Shown here: positions 39,091 through 50,550 of the stretch, one piece after another
How the letters are laid out: every line of letters starts with the position of its first letter
How positions within the stretch are numbered: position 1 is the stretch's first letter
Assembly: GCA_947460255.1 (NCBI GenBank)
Contig: CANHIS010000013.1
Location: 1-57,509 of the forward strand
Source of the DNA: Bacteroidota bacterium
GTDB lineage: Bacteria > Bacteroidota > Bacteroidia > M30B66
Length of the DNA stretch: 57,509 nt
Direction of reading: 5' to 3'
Position numbers and translations under genes: made by a program
Notes under the pieces: generated by a model
The model's input: only the letters and a program-made list of their open reading frames with translations
What the model was told of the DNA's origin: nothing
Databases searched by the model: none

Positions 39091-40383
39091 TTAAATCATA
39101 TAACCCGCGTCATTGGTTCCTAAGGCAGCCCAATATGCTTGTCTGTCTTTGTCTTTCCGACGACGAATAATTTTATTGTCGGCGTTTAATCCATTTAAAG
39201 CAGACTGAATTGCAGTTTTTGCAGAATCCTTTTCTTTACCTTTTAAGTTAAATTCCTTAATACCTGCAGAAACCATTTCGTCTGTATTTAAGAATTTACC
39301 TTCTTTTGTAAGGAATACTACAATGAATTCTCGGTAATGCTCTTTTTTAGGAAGGGTTGACTCGGCGGCCTTAACCACTTTAGCTGCTTTCACAACCATA
39401 GCTGGTTTAACTGCTTTTGCTTTTACTTCTTTAACAGCTTTAACCTTTTTCTCTGCCTTCGGTTTAGCAACCTTTACTGCTTTAGGCGCTTTTGCGGGCT
39501 TAGCCACTTTAGCAGGTTTTGCAACCTTAACTTTAGCAGGCACAGAAACCTTTGCCACCGCAGCTTTTGAAGACGCGCCAGAAACCGCTTTCGGCTTTCT
39601 TCCTCGCTTACCAGCTACTTTCGACACCGCTGCTACAGCAACAGCTGTTGTTTTGGGTTTACGGCCTCTTTTCGCACCTGTTGACTTAACGGCAGGTGCA
39701 ACATTAGCAGCTGTATTTGAAACAGCTTTAGGCTTACGACCTCTTTTGGCGCCAGTTGCTTTTACTACTGGAGTTGCAGATGAAGCGGCTTTGGGTTTAC
39801 GACCTCTCTTTGCGCCAGTTGCTTTTACTACTGGAGTTGCAGATGAAGCGGCTTTTGGCTTACGACCTCTTTTTGCGCCAGTTGCTTTTACTACTGGAGT
39901 TGCAGATGCAACTACTTTGGGTTTACGCCCTCTCTTTGCGCCAGTTGCTTTTACTACTGGAGTTGCAGCTGAAGCGGCTTTGGGTTTACGACCTCTTTTC
40001 TTAGGCTCAGAAGCCAAAGGAGCCGTTTTGATTTTTGCTGGACGCCCTCGTCTTTTAGGCTCCGTGATAGTTGCAGCATTCGAATCTGCTTTTGCAGCAG
40101 CTGGTTTGCGGCCACGTTTTTTTCCTGTTACTGGTTTTTCCGATTTTTCTTTTTTCGGTCTACCGCGTTTCTTTGCTGGATTTGCCGCAGCAACTTCAGT
40201 GAAATCTTCAATTGCAGATTTAATTGCAGAAGGTTTTCTTCCACGTTTACTAGGAGTGCTGCCTATTTTTGAAAGAATTGTTTTGATATTTCTAACTCTT
40301 TCTTCTGCAGCTGCTAACTCCTGAGCGTAAAATGAACTTAATTCGCCCATTTCATCCGCAGAAAATGCGATGCTTTTTGCCAT
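39091..40383 (-). CDS. AT-hook/histone H1-like DNA-binding protein with repeat array
   Basis: 430 residues of very low complexity. A helical N-terminus (1-45, AEERVRNIKTIL) is followed by eleven AT-hook-like cores (KRGRKP or KRGRPK) between about residues 45 and 250, each core expected to enter the minor groove of AT-rich DNA. A Lys-Ala-Val-Pro run like the tail of histone H1 follows (about 255-330). The C-terminal ~85 residues look like a compact winged-helix-like domain (EHYREFIVVFLTKEGKFLNTDEM). A nucleoid-organising protein is inferred. Four AT-hook units are almost identical at DNA level. A TACATTCG element lies 21 nt upstream of the start. Confidence 0.8.
   Translation of the reverse strand: MAKSIAFSADEMGELSSFYAQELAAAEERVRNIKTILSKIGSTPSKRGRKPSAIKSAIEDFTEVAAANPAKKRGRPKKEKSEKPVTGKKRGRKPAAAKADSNAATITEPKRRGRPAKIKTAPLASEPKKRGRKPKAASAATPVVKATGAKRGRKPKVVASATPVVKATGAKRGRKPKAASSATPVVKATGAKRGRKPKAASSATPVVKATGAKRGRKPKAVSNTAANVAPAVKSTGAKRGRKPKTTAVAVAAVSKVAGKRGRKPKAVSGASSKAAVAKVSVPAKVKVAKPAKVAKPAKAPKAVKVAKPKAEKKVKAVKEVKAKAVKPAMVVKAAKVVKAAESTLPKKEHYREFIVVFLTKEGKFLNTDEMVSAGIKEFNLKGKEKDSAKTAIQSALNGLNADNKIIRRRKDKDRQAYWAALGTNDAGYMI
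39749..40000 (-). repeat. 63-bp tandem repeat, four copies, in the AT-hook gene
   Basis: The bases GCGCCAGTTGCTTTTACTAC recur at 39749, 39812, 39875 and 39938, exactly 63 bp apart. Each unit encodes 21 residues (one KRGRKPK core plus a SATPVVKATGA-type linker). The copies differ by only a few bases, which indicates recent duplication or gene conversion. The number of units is likely to vary between strains. Confidence 0.9.
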
Positions 40384-46466: not shown

Positions 46467-47369
46467 TTACCAGCGAATTGGAGAAAATCCAGCACCACTT
46501 TGGCTTCTATAATAGAATGTTGGCGCGGGAATTTTCACCCATCTAACTGCGCTCGTAAAAATCTTCCAAGCCTTTCCTTTCACTTTCAATTTCCGTAAAT
46601 CTATGTCGAACGATAGGTTGAATTCCCTCTCTCGAGGGATGTTGGAGTAATTAAACACTTTACCACCATCGTCCCAAATATTGTTCGTTCCGCCCAGCAA
46701 TCCATGTGCACCGTAACCCAATGAAACACATAACCACGGCGGGATTTTGTGGTGAAATAGATTGAGAGGAATTGAAAGCCAATACGTTTGCTCATTGTAG
46801 TTTTTGAGCATCCTTTCAGGGATATTGCTGCCCAATAAATTTGGACGGTACTGACTGAAACCTCCTGCATTCCAAGAATATTTCAAATTAAACTGATCTA
46901 AAAAATCCGATTCCGATTGAATGTACGAAAACGCAATTCCTCCGAAATTAGAAAGCAAATCGGCAGTTGAAAATCCCCATCCGTCCGAAAATCCATCCAT
47001 CACCTCTATTGATGTCATGAACATTGTAGGATACAGAACTCCCAACCAGCGAGATTGCTTTTCGGTGAATCCTGATAGCTCTGCCGATTCTCTTATGAAA
47101 TCAGAAATCCACCACGACGTAACGAAATGTCCCGTTTTATCCATTCCAAGCCATTCATTTCTATCATTGAAGGCTCGAAACTTCCCGGTGTTGTAAGGCT
47201 TATACCAAGTGTTGTACAAGACCAAACTTCCTGCAGAATACATTGATAATGTTGTTGTTAAGTATGCAACTTTATGATTCTGGGTAGTATTTGTTGAATC
47301 TACCGACTGTGCCCGTACCAACTGTATGAGAAAGAAAAATGCAAATACAACAATCTTTTTATCAGGCAT
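46467..47369 (-). CDS. DUF2279 (YfiM-like) exported protein
   Basis: 300 residues with an N-terminal signal segment (MPDKKIVVFAFFFLIQLVRAQ). The central part has the conserved aromatic/acidic pattern WLGMDKTGHFVTSWWISDFIRE, then EVMDGFSDGWGFSTADLLSNFGG, as in DUF2279. Several amphipathic or membrane-buried segments suggest an outer-membrane-associated protein. The function of the family is unknown. A TAACTTTG element (47392-47385) lies 15 nt upstream of the ATG, back to back with the tRNA-Ser promoter. Confidence 0.78.
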   Translation of the reverse strand: MPDKKIVVFAFFFLIQLVRAQSVDSTNTTQNHKVAYLTTTLSMYSAGSLVLYNTWYKPYNTGKFRAFNDRNEWLGMDKTGHFVTSWWISDFIRESAELSGFTEKQSRWLGVLYPTMFMTSIEVMDGFSDGWGFSTADLLSNFGGIAFSYIQSESDFLDQFNLKYSWNAGGFSQYRPNLLGSNIPERMLKNYNEQTYWLSIPLNLFHHKIPPWLCVSLGYGAHGLLGGTNNIWDDGGKVFNYSNIPREREFNLSFDIDLRKLKVKGKAWKIFTSAVRWVKIPAPTFYYRSQSGAGFSPIRW

Positions 47370-47450: not shown

Positions 47451-47535
47451 GGAGAAATGGCAGAGCGGTCGATTGCGGCAGTCTTGAAAACTGTTGACTG
47501 TAATAGGTCCGGGGGTTCGAATCCCTCTTTCTCCG
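47451..47535 (+). tRNA. tRNA-Ser(UGA)
   Basis: The acceptor stem GGAGAAA pairs with TTTCTCC at 47528-47534, with discriminator G47535. The anticodon arm GCAGT/ACTGT (47478-47482 and 47490-47494, one G-T pair) closes a loop with anticodon TGA at 47485-47487. A long variable arm follows, then a normal T-arm (GGGGGTTCGAATCCC). All are diagnostic of serine tRNA. CCA is not encoded. A terminator hairpin follows at 47548. Confidence 0.96.
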
Positions 47536-48080
47536 CTGAAAATTAATCCTCACGAAATCGTGGGGATTTTTTTTTGCTTATAATCTTCACAAAGCCGCAG
47601 GAAATTGCGGTCCCATCGGGAAAAAATGTTGATTGTTAAAGTTCTGGGGGTCTCCCATCGGGATTTCTCCGCTGAAAATTAATCCTCACGAAATCGTGGG
47701 GATCTTTTTTCATCAAACTTCACAAAGCCGCAGGAAATTACGGTCCCATCGGGAAATACTGTTGATTGTTAAAGTTCTGGGGGTCTCCCTTCGGGATTTC
47801 TCCGCTAAAAATTAATCCTCACGAAATCGTGGGGATTTTTTTTTGCTTATAATCTTCACAAAGCCGCAGGAAATTGCGGTCCCATCGGGAAAAACTGTTG
47901 ATTGTTAAAGTTCTGGGGGGCTCCCTTCGGGATTTCTCCGCTGAAAATTAATCCTCACGAAATCGTGGGGATTTTTTTTGCTTATAATCTTCACAAAGCC
48001 GCAGGAGATTGCGGTCCCATCGGGAAAAACTGTTGACTGTTAAAGTTCTGGGGTTCTCCCATCGGGATTTCTCCGCTGAA
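47536..48080 (+). repeat. four tandem ~135-bp repeats derived from tRNA-Ser plus its terminator
   Basis: The motif GCTGAA that follows the tRNA 3' end recurs at 47535, 47671, 47804, 47940 and 48075 (spacings 136, 133, 136, 135). Each unit carries, in order: a terminator hairpin (CCTCACG-AAAT-CGTGGGG plus T-run); CTTCACAAAGCCGCAGG; a segment like the tRNA from ATTGCGG through CTGTTGACTGT (unit 4) or CTGTTGATTGT; and a 3' end TTTCTCCGCTGAA. Where the anticodon stem and T-arm should be, short TCCC-ATC-GGGA or TCCC-TTC-GGGA hairpins replace tRNA sequence, so none can fold as tRNA. Units are about 90% alike. Confidence 0.85.
47548..47575 (+). terminator. intrinsic terminator of tRNA-Ser
   Basis: CCTCACG (47548-47554) pairs with CGTGGGG (47559-47565) around the loop AAAT, followed by A and nine T's. 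The same stem recurs in units 2-4 of the array (starting at 47684, 47817 and 47953). Confidence 0.85.
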
Positions 48081-48309: not shown

Positions 48310-48501
48310 TTAGTAAGTGTCGCTTCCGAATTTTAATTCATCCAATAAAGATTGAATACGCTTGAGCGCTTCAATTTCTTCATTACTCAGCTTTGAATTG
48401 TTTTGTTCTTCTAATTTTCCTTGTGAATTCAGGCGAAGAGCATGCAATTGATCAACACTAAGTTCTGTTCCATTGTTCACTTGAAAGAGAATTGGCTTCA
48501 T
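48310..48501 (-). CDS. small acidic protein of unknown function downstream of a sensor kinase
   Basis: 63 residues from the ATG at 48501, whose A is the last base of the kinase stop codon (TGATG). The sequence (MKPILFQVNNGTEL...) has no signal peptide or membrane segment and an amphipathic C-terminal helix rich in Glu, Asn and Leu (SNEEIEALKRIQSLLDEL). It is not recognised. The start/stop coupling and normal codon usage argue that it is translated, perhaps as a modulator or partner of the kinase; this is inference. A non-coding tail is the alternative. Confidence 0.5.
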   Translation of the reverse strand: MKPILFQVNNGTELSVDQLHALRLNSQGKLEEQNNSKLSNEEIEALKRIQSLLDELKFGSDTY

Positions 48502-50321
48502 CACGATGTAACTGAAGTAAGTGGTTTAACAGGGTTTTCCTTTTGATAGGTGTTTTGTTGCAGTGTGAATTGAAACGGCTTAAATCCTTCGTGACTTTGT
48601 TTAGGCCATTTAAATTTAAATTTTGTGGTTTCTCCTGGTTGTGATTCAACCCAAATTTTACCACCAGCTTCATCAATAATTTTCTTTACGATCGCCAAAC
48701 CAACACCTGTACTTTCGAAGGTATCTCTGGCTTGAAGTGTCTGAAAAATAACGAAGATCTTTTCATGAAATTGTGGATCAATTCCTGGTCCGTTGTCTTC
48801 GAAACAAAACACATAATCCTCGCCTTGATCTTCGCATGAAATATTCAAAATTGGATTTGGTTTGTCATTGTGTTTCACTGCATTGCTTACCAAATTAGCA
48901 ATCACTTGTTGAAGTTTCATCCGCTCTGCGAACAACACTGGCATTTTTCCAGATACATTGAATTTCACATTTGCTTCTTGAACAAACAATTCCCGGGCAT
49001 CGTCAATAAGTTCGGCCACATCTACTTGCGAATTCGGACTTTTCACACGATCGGCTCTCGAATAGTCAAGAATTCCGTTAATCAATGCTTCCATGCGCAT
49101 CACACGGCCTTTAAGAATCTTGAAATGCTCTTTGGTATCATTGGTAAACTTGTCGCCAATATCTTCCTCAATCCACACAGTGAGATTCGAAATTGCCCGA
49201 AGTGGTGCTTTCAAATCGTGCGATACGACATAGGCAAATTTGTCTAGTTCTTTGTTTGCCTTTTCTAAGTATCGATAATATTCGGCCATTTTCACCTCTG
49301 CCTCTTTCCGTTCGGTGATGTCGGAATTTACATGGATAAACCGTTCAAGCTTTCCTTCATCATCCAAAATTGGTGTAACGTTTACTTGTTGCCAGATTGT
49401 TTTTCCTGACTTATGATATTTTTGAAGTTCCCCTGAGAACGACATACCACCAATCAATTTTTCATTTAACTGTTTTATTGTTTCCCTTGAGGTTAGAGGT
49501 CCATACAAGATATTTTCAGGCTTTTTGCCTTCCACTTCATCGCTCGAAAATCCTGTTAATCTTGTAAAACCATCATTTACCCATTCAATTTCTCCAGAAG
49601 CATTGGTAATCATTACGGAGTTGTCGGTGTTTGATGCAACCAACGATAATTTCTTGAGCTCCTCGTTCTTCTTTTCCAAGGCCACAGCCGACTCCATTAC
49701 TTTGGTGATGACAATGTTTTTGGAACTCAACAAATTGTTTGATAAACTGTAAATGAGCAACGTGGCAGTAGTATAAGTGATCATGTAATCGAGATTCAAC
49801 ATCAGCCCTTGCGGATCAGAATCAACGATATTTCTTACATCCCTGCCATAAGTATTCGAATAAAAATAAAAGAATGCAAGGTTGAGAATACTCATCAACG
49901 AAATCACTTTTCCCGACTTATTGCCCAACAACATAAATGTGGCGAGAATTAAACCGCCCATGTACATCATTCCTGAGTTTCTTATACCTCCAGAATAATA
50001 AGTAACAAAGTGCAATACCAAGAAATCGCTCAGCAAGGAAATCCAGTATGCGCTTTTAAAATTCTTATGGTAGTTAAGGGCAAAATAATTAATTGCCAAT
50101 ATACTTGTAAGACCTATTAAAATTTCCGTCATCCAATCTGATGCGCCTGCTACAGAAATAATCTGAACGGTGATCGATAAAGAAATTAGAAAGGTTGTGA
50201 GCGAAAGGGTTCTAAATAAATTAAACCGCTGACGTTCAGAAAGATCATCTGTATGAATGCAGCGTTGTGCATCTCGAATTAACAGGACATCTATAAAACG
50301 CTTTGTAAACGGGTGTTTCAT
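48501..50321 (-). CDS. membrane PAS-domain sensor histidine kinase
   Basis: 606 residues from the ATG at 50321. About six membrane helices (45-200) form a 7TM-like sensory region with no large external loop. A PAS domain (about 225-330) with its PAC end (FIHVNSDITERKEAE) follows. The HisKA dimerisation helix has the phospho-acceptor His368 (YVVSHDLKAPLRAIS). The ATPase domain (about 470-585) has the N box (VSNAVKHN), G1 (FEDNGPGIDP) and G2 (STGVGLAIVKKII). No response regulator gene is adjacent, so it is an orphan kinase. An imperfect GTTCTT/AAGAAC hairpin lies just upstream of the start. Confidence 0.92.
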   Translation of the reverse strand: MKHPFTKRFIDVLLIRDAQRCIHTDDLSERQRFNLFRTLSLTTFLISLSITVQIISVAGASDWMTEILIGLTSILAINYFALNYHKNFKSAYWISLLSDFLVLHFVTYYSGGIRNSGMMYMGGLILATFMLLGNKSGKVISLMSILNLAFFYFYSNTYGRDVRNIVDSDPQGLMLNLDYMITYTTATLLIYSLSNNLLSSKNIVITKVMESAVALEKKNEELKKLSLVASNTDNSVMITNASGEIEWVNDGFTRLTGFSSDEVEGKKPENILYGPLTSRETIKQLNEKLIGGMSFSGELQKYHKSGKTIWQQVNVTPILDDEGKLERFIHVNSDITERKEAEVKMAEYYRYLEKANKELDKFAYVVSHDLKAPLRAISNLTVWIEEDIGDKFTNDTKEHFKILKGRVMRMEALINGILDYSRADRVKSPNSQVDVAELIDDARELFVQEANVKFNVSGKMPVLFAERMKLQQVIANLVSNAVKHNDKPNPILNISCEDQGEDYVFCFEDNGPGIDPQFHEKIFVIFQTLQARDTFESTGVGLAIVKKIIDEAGGKIWVESQPGETTKFKFKWPKQSHEGFKPFQFTLQQNTYQKENPVKPLTSVTS

Positions 50322-50550
50322 GTGCGTGGTTTGAATGAGTTCTTCCAAGAAAGAACATGTTATTATTCGTAAACACTATAAAACAGTTACCTTACAGATT
50401 GCCAATTGCCTACCTATTCAATGTATTTTCTTACCTGTAAATTGAAGAATAACCCAATCATATTTTCAACGATTTAGGTAAGAGGATTTTTCAAATTAAA
50501 TCAAAAGTTTTTTAGATAGTCTTGAAGAAATCAAATCCGACGAGTTTCAT

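Follow-up and report, generated by a model that had tools for sequence, protein, structure and literature searches.

A tRNA-Ser-linked array of paired minihairpins and recurrent tRNA-3'-end repeats in Bacteroidota

Repeats of a tRNA 3' end behind the tRNA gene itself have, to our knowledge, so far been regarded as a peculiarity of enterobacteria (tyrT/rtT). In Escherichia coli K-12, a 178-bp unit is repeated 3.1 times behind tyrV; each copy has a 19-nt tRNA 3' end, AATCCTTCCCCCACCACCA, running from the T-loop on and preceded within the unit by the complementary GGGGAAGGAT. These repeats (rttR) are covered by the Rfam family RtT (RF00391), which also matches the tyrT-tyrV spacer (L296), so that the region has four RtT copies. 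Displacement of a tRNA 3' fragment, followed by a displaced terminator, is likewise known from the attR of genomic islands, and the T-loop and anticodon loop are crossover subsites of integrases in tRNA genes (PMC4383910). Two further systems offer a comparison, namely REP/BIME palindromes with their RAYT transposases (PMC3733652) and the attC arrays of integrons. A literature search over a limited range of journals gave no such repeats for Bacteroidota. Here, we describe a tRNA-linked tandem array of a Bacteroidota bacterium and its relatives within the phylum.

The analyzed stretch of DNA (57,509 nucleotides, hereafter the window) contains an intact tRNA-Ser(TGA) gene followed by four tandem units of about 135 bp, with ARAGORN and Rfam confirming the tRNA and TRF the array of the preliminary description. 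TRF delimits the array at 47528-48080 (period 136, 4.1 copies, 93% matches), beginning with the last nine bases of the tRNA, and successive units start 133, 136 and 135 bp apart. The minihairpin pairs are located as previously claimed. The features are as follows.

46467..47369, minus strand: upstream neighbour, DUF2279 protein, also the neighbour in the congener G001
47451..47536, plus strand: tRNA-Ser(TGA), intact (ARAGORN; Rfam tRNA, 56.2 bits)
47537..47672, plus strand: unit 1, made up of a terminator, a spacer, a tRNA-like portion bearing two minihairpins, and the acceptor 3' strand TTTCTCCGC
47545..47568, plus strand: native intrinsic terminator of the tRNA, first of four terminator-like sites
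47611..47621, plus strand: first minihairpin of unit 1, TCCC-ATC-GGGA, at the anticodon-arm position
47653..47663, plus strand: second minihairpin of unit 1, TCCC-ATC-GGGA, at the T-loop position
47673..47805, plus strand: unit 2, terminator at 47682-47703
47806..47941, plus strand: unit 3, terminator at 47814-47837
47942..48076, plus strand: unit 4, terminator at 47950-47973, no terminator after the acceptor strand
47744-47754, 47880-47890 and 48015-48025, plus strand: first minihairpins of units 2-4, TCCC-ATC-GGGA
47786-47796, 47922-47932 and 48057-48067, plus strand: second minihairpins of units 2-4, TCCC-WTC-GGGA
48501..50348, minus strand: downstream neighbour, predicted PAS-domain sensor kinase, also the neighbour in G001

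All units follow one plan, in which a terminator copy is followed by a spacer, a tRNA-like piece spanning D-arm to T-stem, and TTTCTCCGC; the acceptor strand and both minihairpins are present in four of four units. The preliminary description had the anticodon stem and the T-arm replaced by hairpins. The hairpins are indeed there, but the first replaces the anticodon arm only in its 5' half, anticodon included. Resemblance to the tRNA picks up again just 3' of the anticodon. The D-arm region is altered as well (CCGCA-GGAAAT-TGCGG). In the second minihairpin (context GGGGG-tc-TCCC-ATC-GGGA-tt-TCTCC), the T-stem is kept and the T-loop replaced. The view of four tRNA/terminator units holds insofar as there are four terminator-like sites, against 1.1 expected from shuffles; the first, however, is the tRNA's own and none follows the last unit. 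The fold z-score over the whole stretch is -5.5, the units fold better on the plus than on the minus strand in five of five cases, G-T pairs make up 17% of their stem pairs, and the fold consists of separate hairpins and no four-way junction. Neither an integrase nor a transposase adjoins the array, and no island genes lie between it and the next gene.

The genome has no other array of this kind. GTCCCWTCGGGA occurs genome-wide in the four array copies, at one site within an apparent coding region and nowhere else, and the minihairpin is not dispersed. An Rfam scan gave no known RNA above threshold besides tRNA; weak matches with high E-values were taken as chance. When relatives were searched, one genome per species, the same array was found at the orthologous site of the congener G001, with the same two minihairpin positions and the same neighbours. 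G001 is split there between contigs CAMCXT010000021.1 and CAMCXT010000006.1, which both break inside the array. It was assembled separately, and this rules out an assembly artefact, the caveat raised by the preliminary description. The tRNA stretch AACTGTTGACTGTAATAGGTCCGGGGG is unchanged in the G001 units, the first hairpin is identical, and the second has the loop AAC, changes in the second hairpin being confined to the triloop. A comparison of five units from two species shows no variation in any of the 16 stem columns, against variation in 37 of 89 in the spacers (P about 6e-5 for exchangeable columns, 0.01 counting the tRNA-like part alone). As no stem base varies, there is no covariation to count in the window-type stems. 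Identity between units is 88-97% within the window genome and 76-77% to the units of the congener, which supports the earlier suggestion of amplification. The array is not the product of random decay, as had been argued from the window and as is supported by the same minihairpins in the same places of G001 and by the invariant stem columns.

Of the known systems, the E. coli tyrT/tyrV repeats come closest. With them, the window array has in common the tandem arrangement directly distal to a tRNA and a tRNA 3' end in each repeat (TTTCTCCGC in the window, AATCC...CCA in E. coli), the piece retained in the window being shorter owing to the replacement on the T-loop side. In several other Bacteroidota, the repeated tRNA piece starts at the same T-loop position as in E. 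coli. The tyrT/tyrV repeats differ in that they belong to tRNA-Tyr of Enterobacteria and that their units contain neither an intrinsic terminator nor a four-way junction. The RtT profile (RF00391) matched the E. coli locus only and none of the Bacteroidota loci tested. The window array is thus built like the tyrT repeats, yet it is no RtT member as this family is defined by sequence.

Sister species in the genus of the window have quite different, non-homologous arrays at the same tRNA-Ser, such as about five 120-bp copies in G004. The DNA right behind tRNA-Ser in such relatives folds into a four-way junction that leaves hardly one base unpaired. Its stem P1 starts directly behind CCA, and P2 usually corresponds to the terminator. 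In P3, the region of the T-run is paired with an A-run, frequently with G-CTTG-C at the tip; P4 is mostly capped by a C-GNA-G triloop. The closing strand of P1 is followed by a box of the approximate form GAAGCCYCCCCC-n-GGGATCA-stem-TAATCCC (CCCCC-n-GGGATCA...TAATCCC), with a conserved C.A mismatch in its hairpin. Full copies (G050, G140, G384, G111, G094) continue from TAATCCC into the 3' end of the tRNA itself and then into the next unit; the repeated unit of G004, G024, G062, G098, G069 and G126 is the second half only (P3', P4, P1', box). The stems of these elements are too variable for a sequence aligner. Their loops are distinctive, with C-GNA-G in 25 of 101 loops compared with 3 of 589 in controls, and 11 G-CTTG-C loops compared with none. 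GCGAAGC mini-hairpins are described in parts of the literature as extraordinarily stable DNA hairpins (e.g., PMC4686876). G-T pairs amount to 2.8-3.2% in junction-element stems; the corresponding values are 7.4% for terminators located behind other tRNA genes and 12-14% for tRNAs. P1-P4 fold better on the plus than on the minus strand in 23 of 25 cases, whereas whole elements show no strand bias; the strand test is therefore not usable as proof of action at the DNA level and leaves room for a role as RNA. Overall, we consider action as DNA likelier than action as RNA for the junction elements and have no such preference for the window array. The window units possess neither the four-way junction nor a complete GGGATCA...TAATCCC box nor GNA triloops. 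They have CTCCC-ATC-GGGA directly before TTTCTCCGC, with the rest of the box absent, and their minihairpins would be linked to the box by place and plan, not by sequence homology.

The window genome itself encodes two full junction units of about 193 bp behind its tRNA-Cys (L073, G000:C91), and each is closed by the 3' end of tRNA-Cys and a terminator. The orthologous array of G001 has one junction unit and a further tRNA end, and tRNA-Cys arrays are found in other versions in G045, G053, G006, G064 and G069. The simplest version, that of G053, has units of ~90 bp composed of a terminator, the T-stem, a short hairpin replacing the T-loop, and the acceptor 3' strand. The stem of the box matches the T-stem of the adjoining tRNA (Ser, GGGAT/ATCCC; Cys, GCGGAT/ATCCGC), and many copies, the window's included, obey a common rule: the T-stem is retained and the T-loop replaced, often by a small hairpin. 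The first minihairpin of the window ends where the hairpin of G045 ends, at AAAA just behind the anticodon. Features of similar build, in which tandem copies of a tRNA 3' end and its native terminator alternate with a hairpin-forming insert, recur directly behind tRNA-Ser and tRNA-Cys of Bacteroidota.

Among Bacteroidia loci fetched by their tRNA, a tandem array lies downstream of 11 of 95 tRNA-Ser(TGA) genes and upstream of none of 102; the 11 include the window itself and one apparently unrelated case (L185), 560 bp away. A junction or box was recognized in about 19 of some 108 tRNA-Ser(TGA) loci (~18%) by inspection, a count that was not blind. Inverted repeats of at least 9 nt, with the first 24 bases behind the tRNA set against bases 75-215, were present in 18 of 100 loci and in 3.5% of shuffles. 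Contig ends within about 600 bases of tRNA-Ser are listed in 12 cases downstream and 3 upstream, each case being visible on one strand only, and arrays of such inserts may explain the frequent breaks of Bacteroidia assemblies just behind tRNA-Ser. Across the phylum, the Ser-type box pattern matched in 7 of 238 genomes. Three matches are convincing, each behind a tRNA-Ser (TGA, GCT and GGA) and two of them outside Bacteroidia. A pattern of tRNA-Ser ends recurring within a single fixed range of gaps was matched by two loci only in 395 genomes, and one of these, L115, has no hairpins. Viral contigs gave no match to the box or hairpin; one hit, with no tRNA nearby, was taken as chance. A different long palindromic repeat, GGGGCAAACCTACGTGTTTGCCCGG, was observed behind the terminator of tRNA-Ser(TGA) in G036 (L034). 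Hairpin repeats linked to tRNAs are a recurrent, largely unexplained DNA feature, and their recurrence in the whole phylum, at loops used by integrases and with conserved hairpins, provides a large comparative data set on their origin and role.

In G050, G140, G384, G111, G094 and E. coli tyrV, the tRNA piece that is repeated begins on the 3' side of the T-loop; in the window and G045, it begins on that of the anticodon loop, so that the boundary of the window's displaced tRNA fragment falls at a known crossover subsite. Tyrosine-integrase ORFs are located directly behind several tRNA-Ser genes of the same class. Since the loop boundaries are integrase subsites and tRNA-Ser is in use as a target, we propose an insertion at the loops with regeneration of tRNA and terminator, in view of the observed anatomy, recurrence, downstream-only placement, T-loop boundary and orthologous congener array. 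Briefly, a hairpin-ended piece of non-coding DNA would join the tRNA gene at a loop; this would be the T-loop, to which the window and one further case add the anticodon loop. Insertion would restore the tRNA and displace a duplicate of its 3' end, together with the terminator, to the downstream side, in the manner of integrative elements. With its T-stem kept and its T-loop replaced, the displaced copy would be neither a tRNA end nor an intact T-loop site. Copies might then multiply and homogenize through recombination between repeats, and stacked terminators would be a by-product of this amplification. A recombinase would make the joint, with the structure acting as single-stranded DNA, and the window array and the four-way-junction elements could share this mode of origin. 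We favour this account of recurrent tRNA-3'-end repeats, made by insertion of hairpin DNA at tRNA loops and subsequent amplification, yet tentatively and just short of calling it probable. Against insertion in the window itself stand the missing integrase, junction, complete box and GNA triloops and the 17% of G-T pairs. No joint, circle, empty-site pair or responsible enzyme was seen in the surveyed genomes (one per species), and there was no overlap between surveyed loci with integrases and loci with elements. A more far-reaching proposal, which we regard as rather unlikely, is that micro-elements folding as single-stranded DNA, with a four-way junction and a box hairpin with its C.A mismatch, are put into tRNA-Ser and tRNA-Cys loops throughout the phylum by a putative trans-acting recombinase, that tRNA and terminator are regenerated and the arrays expand, and that the window array and the tyrT repeats are divergent products.

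A probable integrative element of 52 kb resides in the tRNA-Ser(TGA) of G101 (L239 and L250; G101:C4:281281 and 333516). An integrase ORF lies behind the tRNA, and a second copy of the 22-bp tRNA core, GTTCGAATCCCTCTCTCTCTGC, is found 52 kb away with a terminator after it; this terminator is placed as a displaced native one would be, and the site is presumably the attR.

Among the origins listed in the preliminary description, scars at the tRNA 3' end fit the relatives best, although no integrase lies near the window. The likeness to attR comprises the displaced tRNA 3' fragment with the displaced terminator behind it and the boundary at the T-loop or anticodon loop (PMC4383910; G101), whereas the Bacteroidota inserts are only about 20-110 bp long, gene-free, in tandem and have no integrase nearby. 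Taken literally, each unit would be the displaced tRNA fragment of a since-lost island (ICE or phage), as could be expected from the use of tRNA-Ser as an island target in this class and from the presumed attR of G101 with its fragment and terminator. However, all units of an array have the same insert and the same hairpins, unlike independent scars, the window lacks island genes between the array and the next gene, and the units are too small for genes; we deem true attachment-site scars the least probable reading of all. Neutral tandem duplication, by palindrome slippage behind a strong terminator with template switching that restores the hairpins, would involve neither mobility nor function. 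Truncated arrays that start at hairpin loops and units that are alike within and different between species agree with such slippage, but conservation of the GGGATCA...TAATCCC box extends beyond one class, invariably at a tRNA-Ser, apical loops are conserved, and arrays are downstream only, which makes a neutral origin quite improbable.

It is also conceivable, if rather doubtful, that the array is transcribed as a trailer of the tRNA and kept as functional RNA, in the form of stacked terminators and/or an rtT-like small RNA. Stacked terminators had been suggested before and are compatible with the anatomy of the window array, in which the DR of each of units 1-3 ends in a strong terminator (four sites against 1.1 expected). 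The better fold of the plus strand in five of five units, the invariance of the stems over two species and the annotation of E. coli rttR as RNA point in the same direction. In contrast, the paucity of G-T pairs in junction elements relative to terminators and tRNAs, the patchy presence and the unrelated units at the same tRNA in sister species speak against an RNA role, and insertion with amplification remains our preferred reading.

REP/BIME palindromes have in common with these repeats that they are short hairpins in extragenic tandem clusters, but the window-type repeats are not dispersed and are not the palindromes that flank the RAYT genes of the carriers, and we rejected a REP reading on these grounds. 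As five near-complete carrier genomes lack Y1_Tnp and the palindromes around RAYT genes differ, resident RAYT transposases are not the answer. In G050, a RAYT gene (L223, G050:C29) is flanked by GACCCCATCGGGGTC arrays, and CCCATCGGG is common to these and the window minihairpin, probably by chance. Integron attC arrays are tandem recombination sites that fold as single strands; the conserved C.A mismatch in the box hairpin suggests a likeness by analogy only, whereas the junction elements have no cassette ORFs and their site is a tRNA gene.

Elsewhere in the window, the minus strand encodes a Lys/Ala/Arg-rich protein of 430 amino acids (39091-40383) with AT-hook-like GAKRGRKPK repeats, whose coding DNA forms a 63-bp tandem repeat at 39718-39996.
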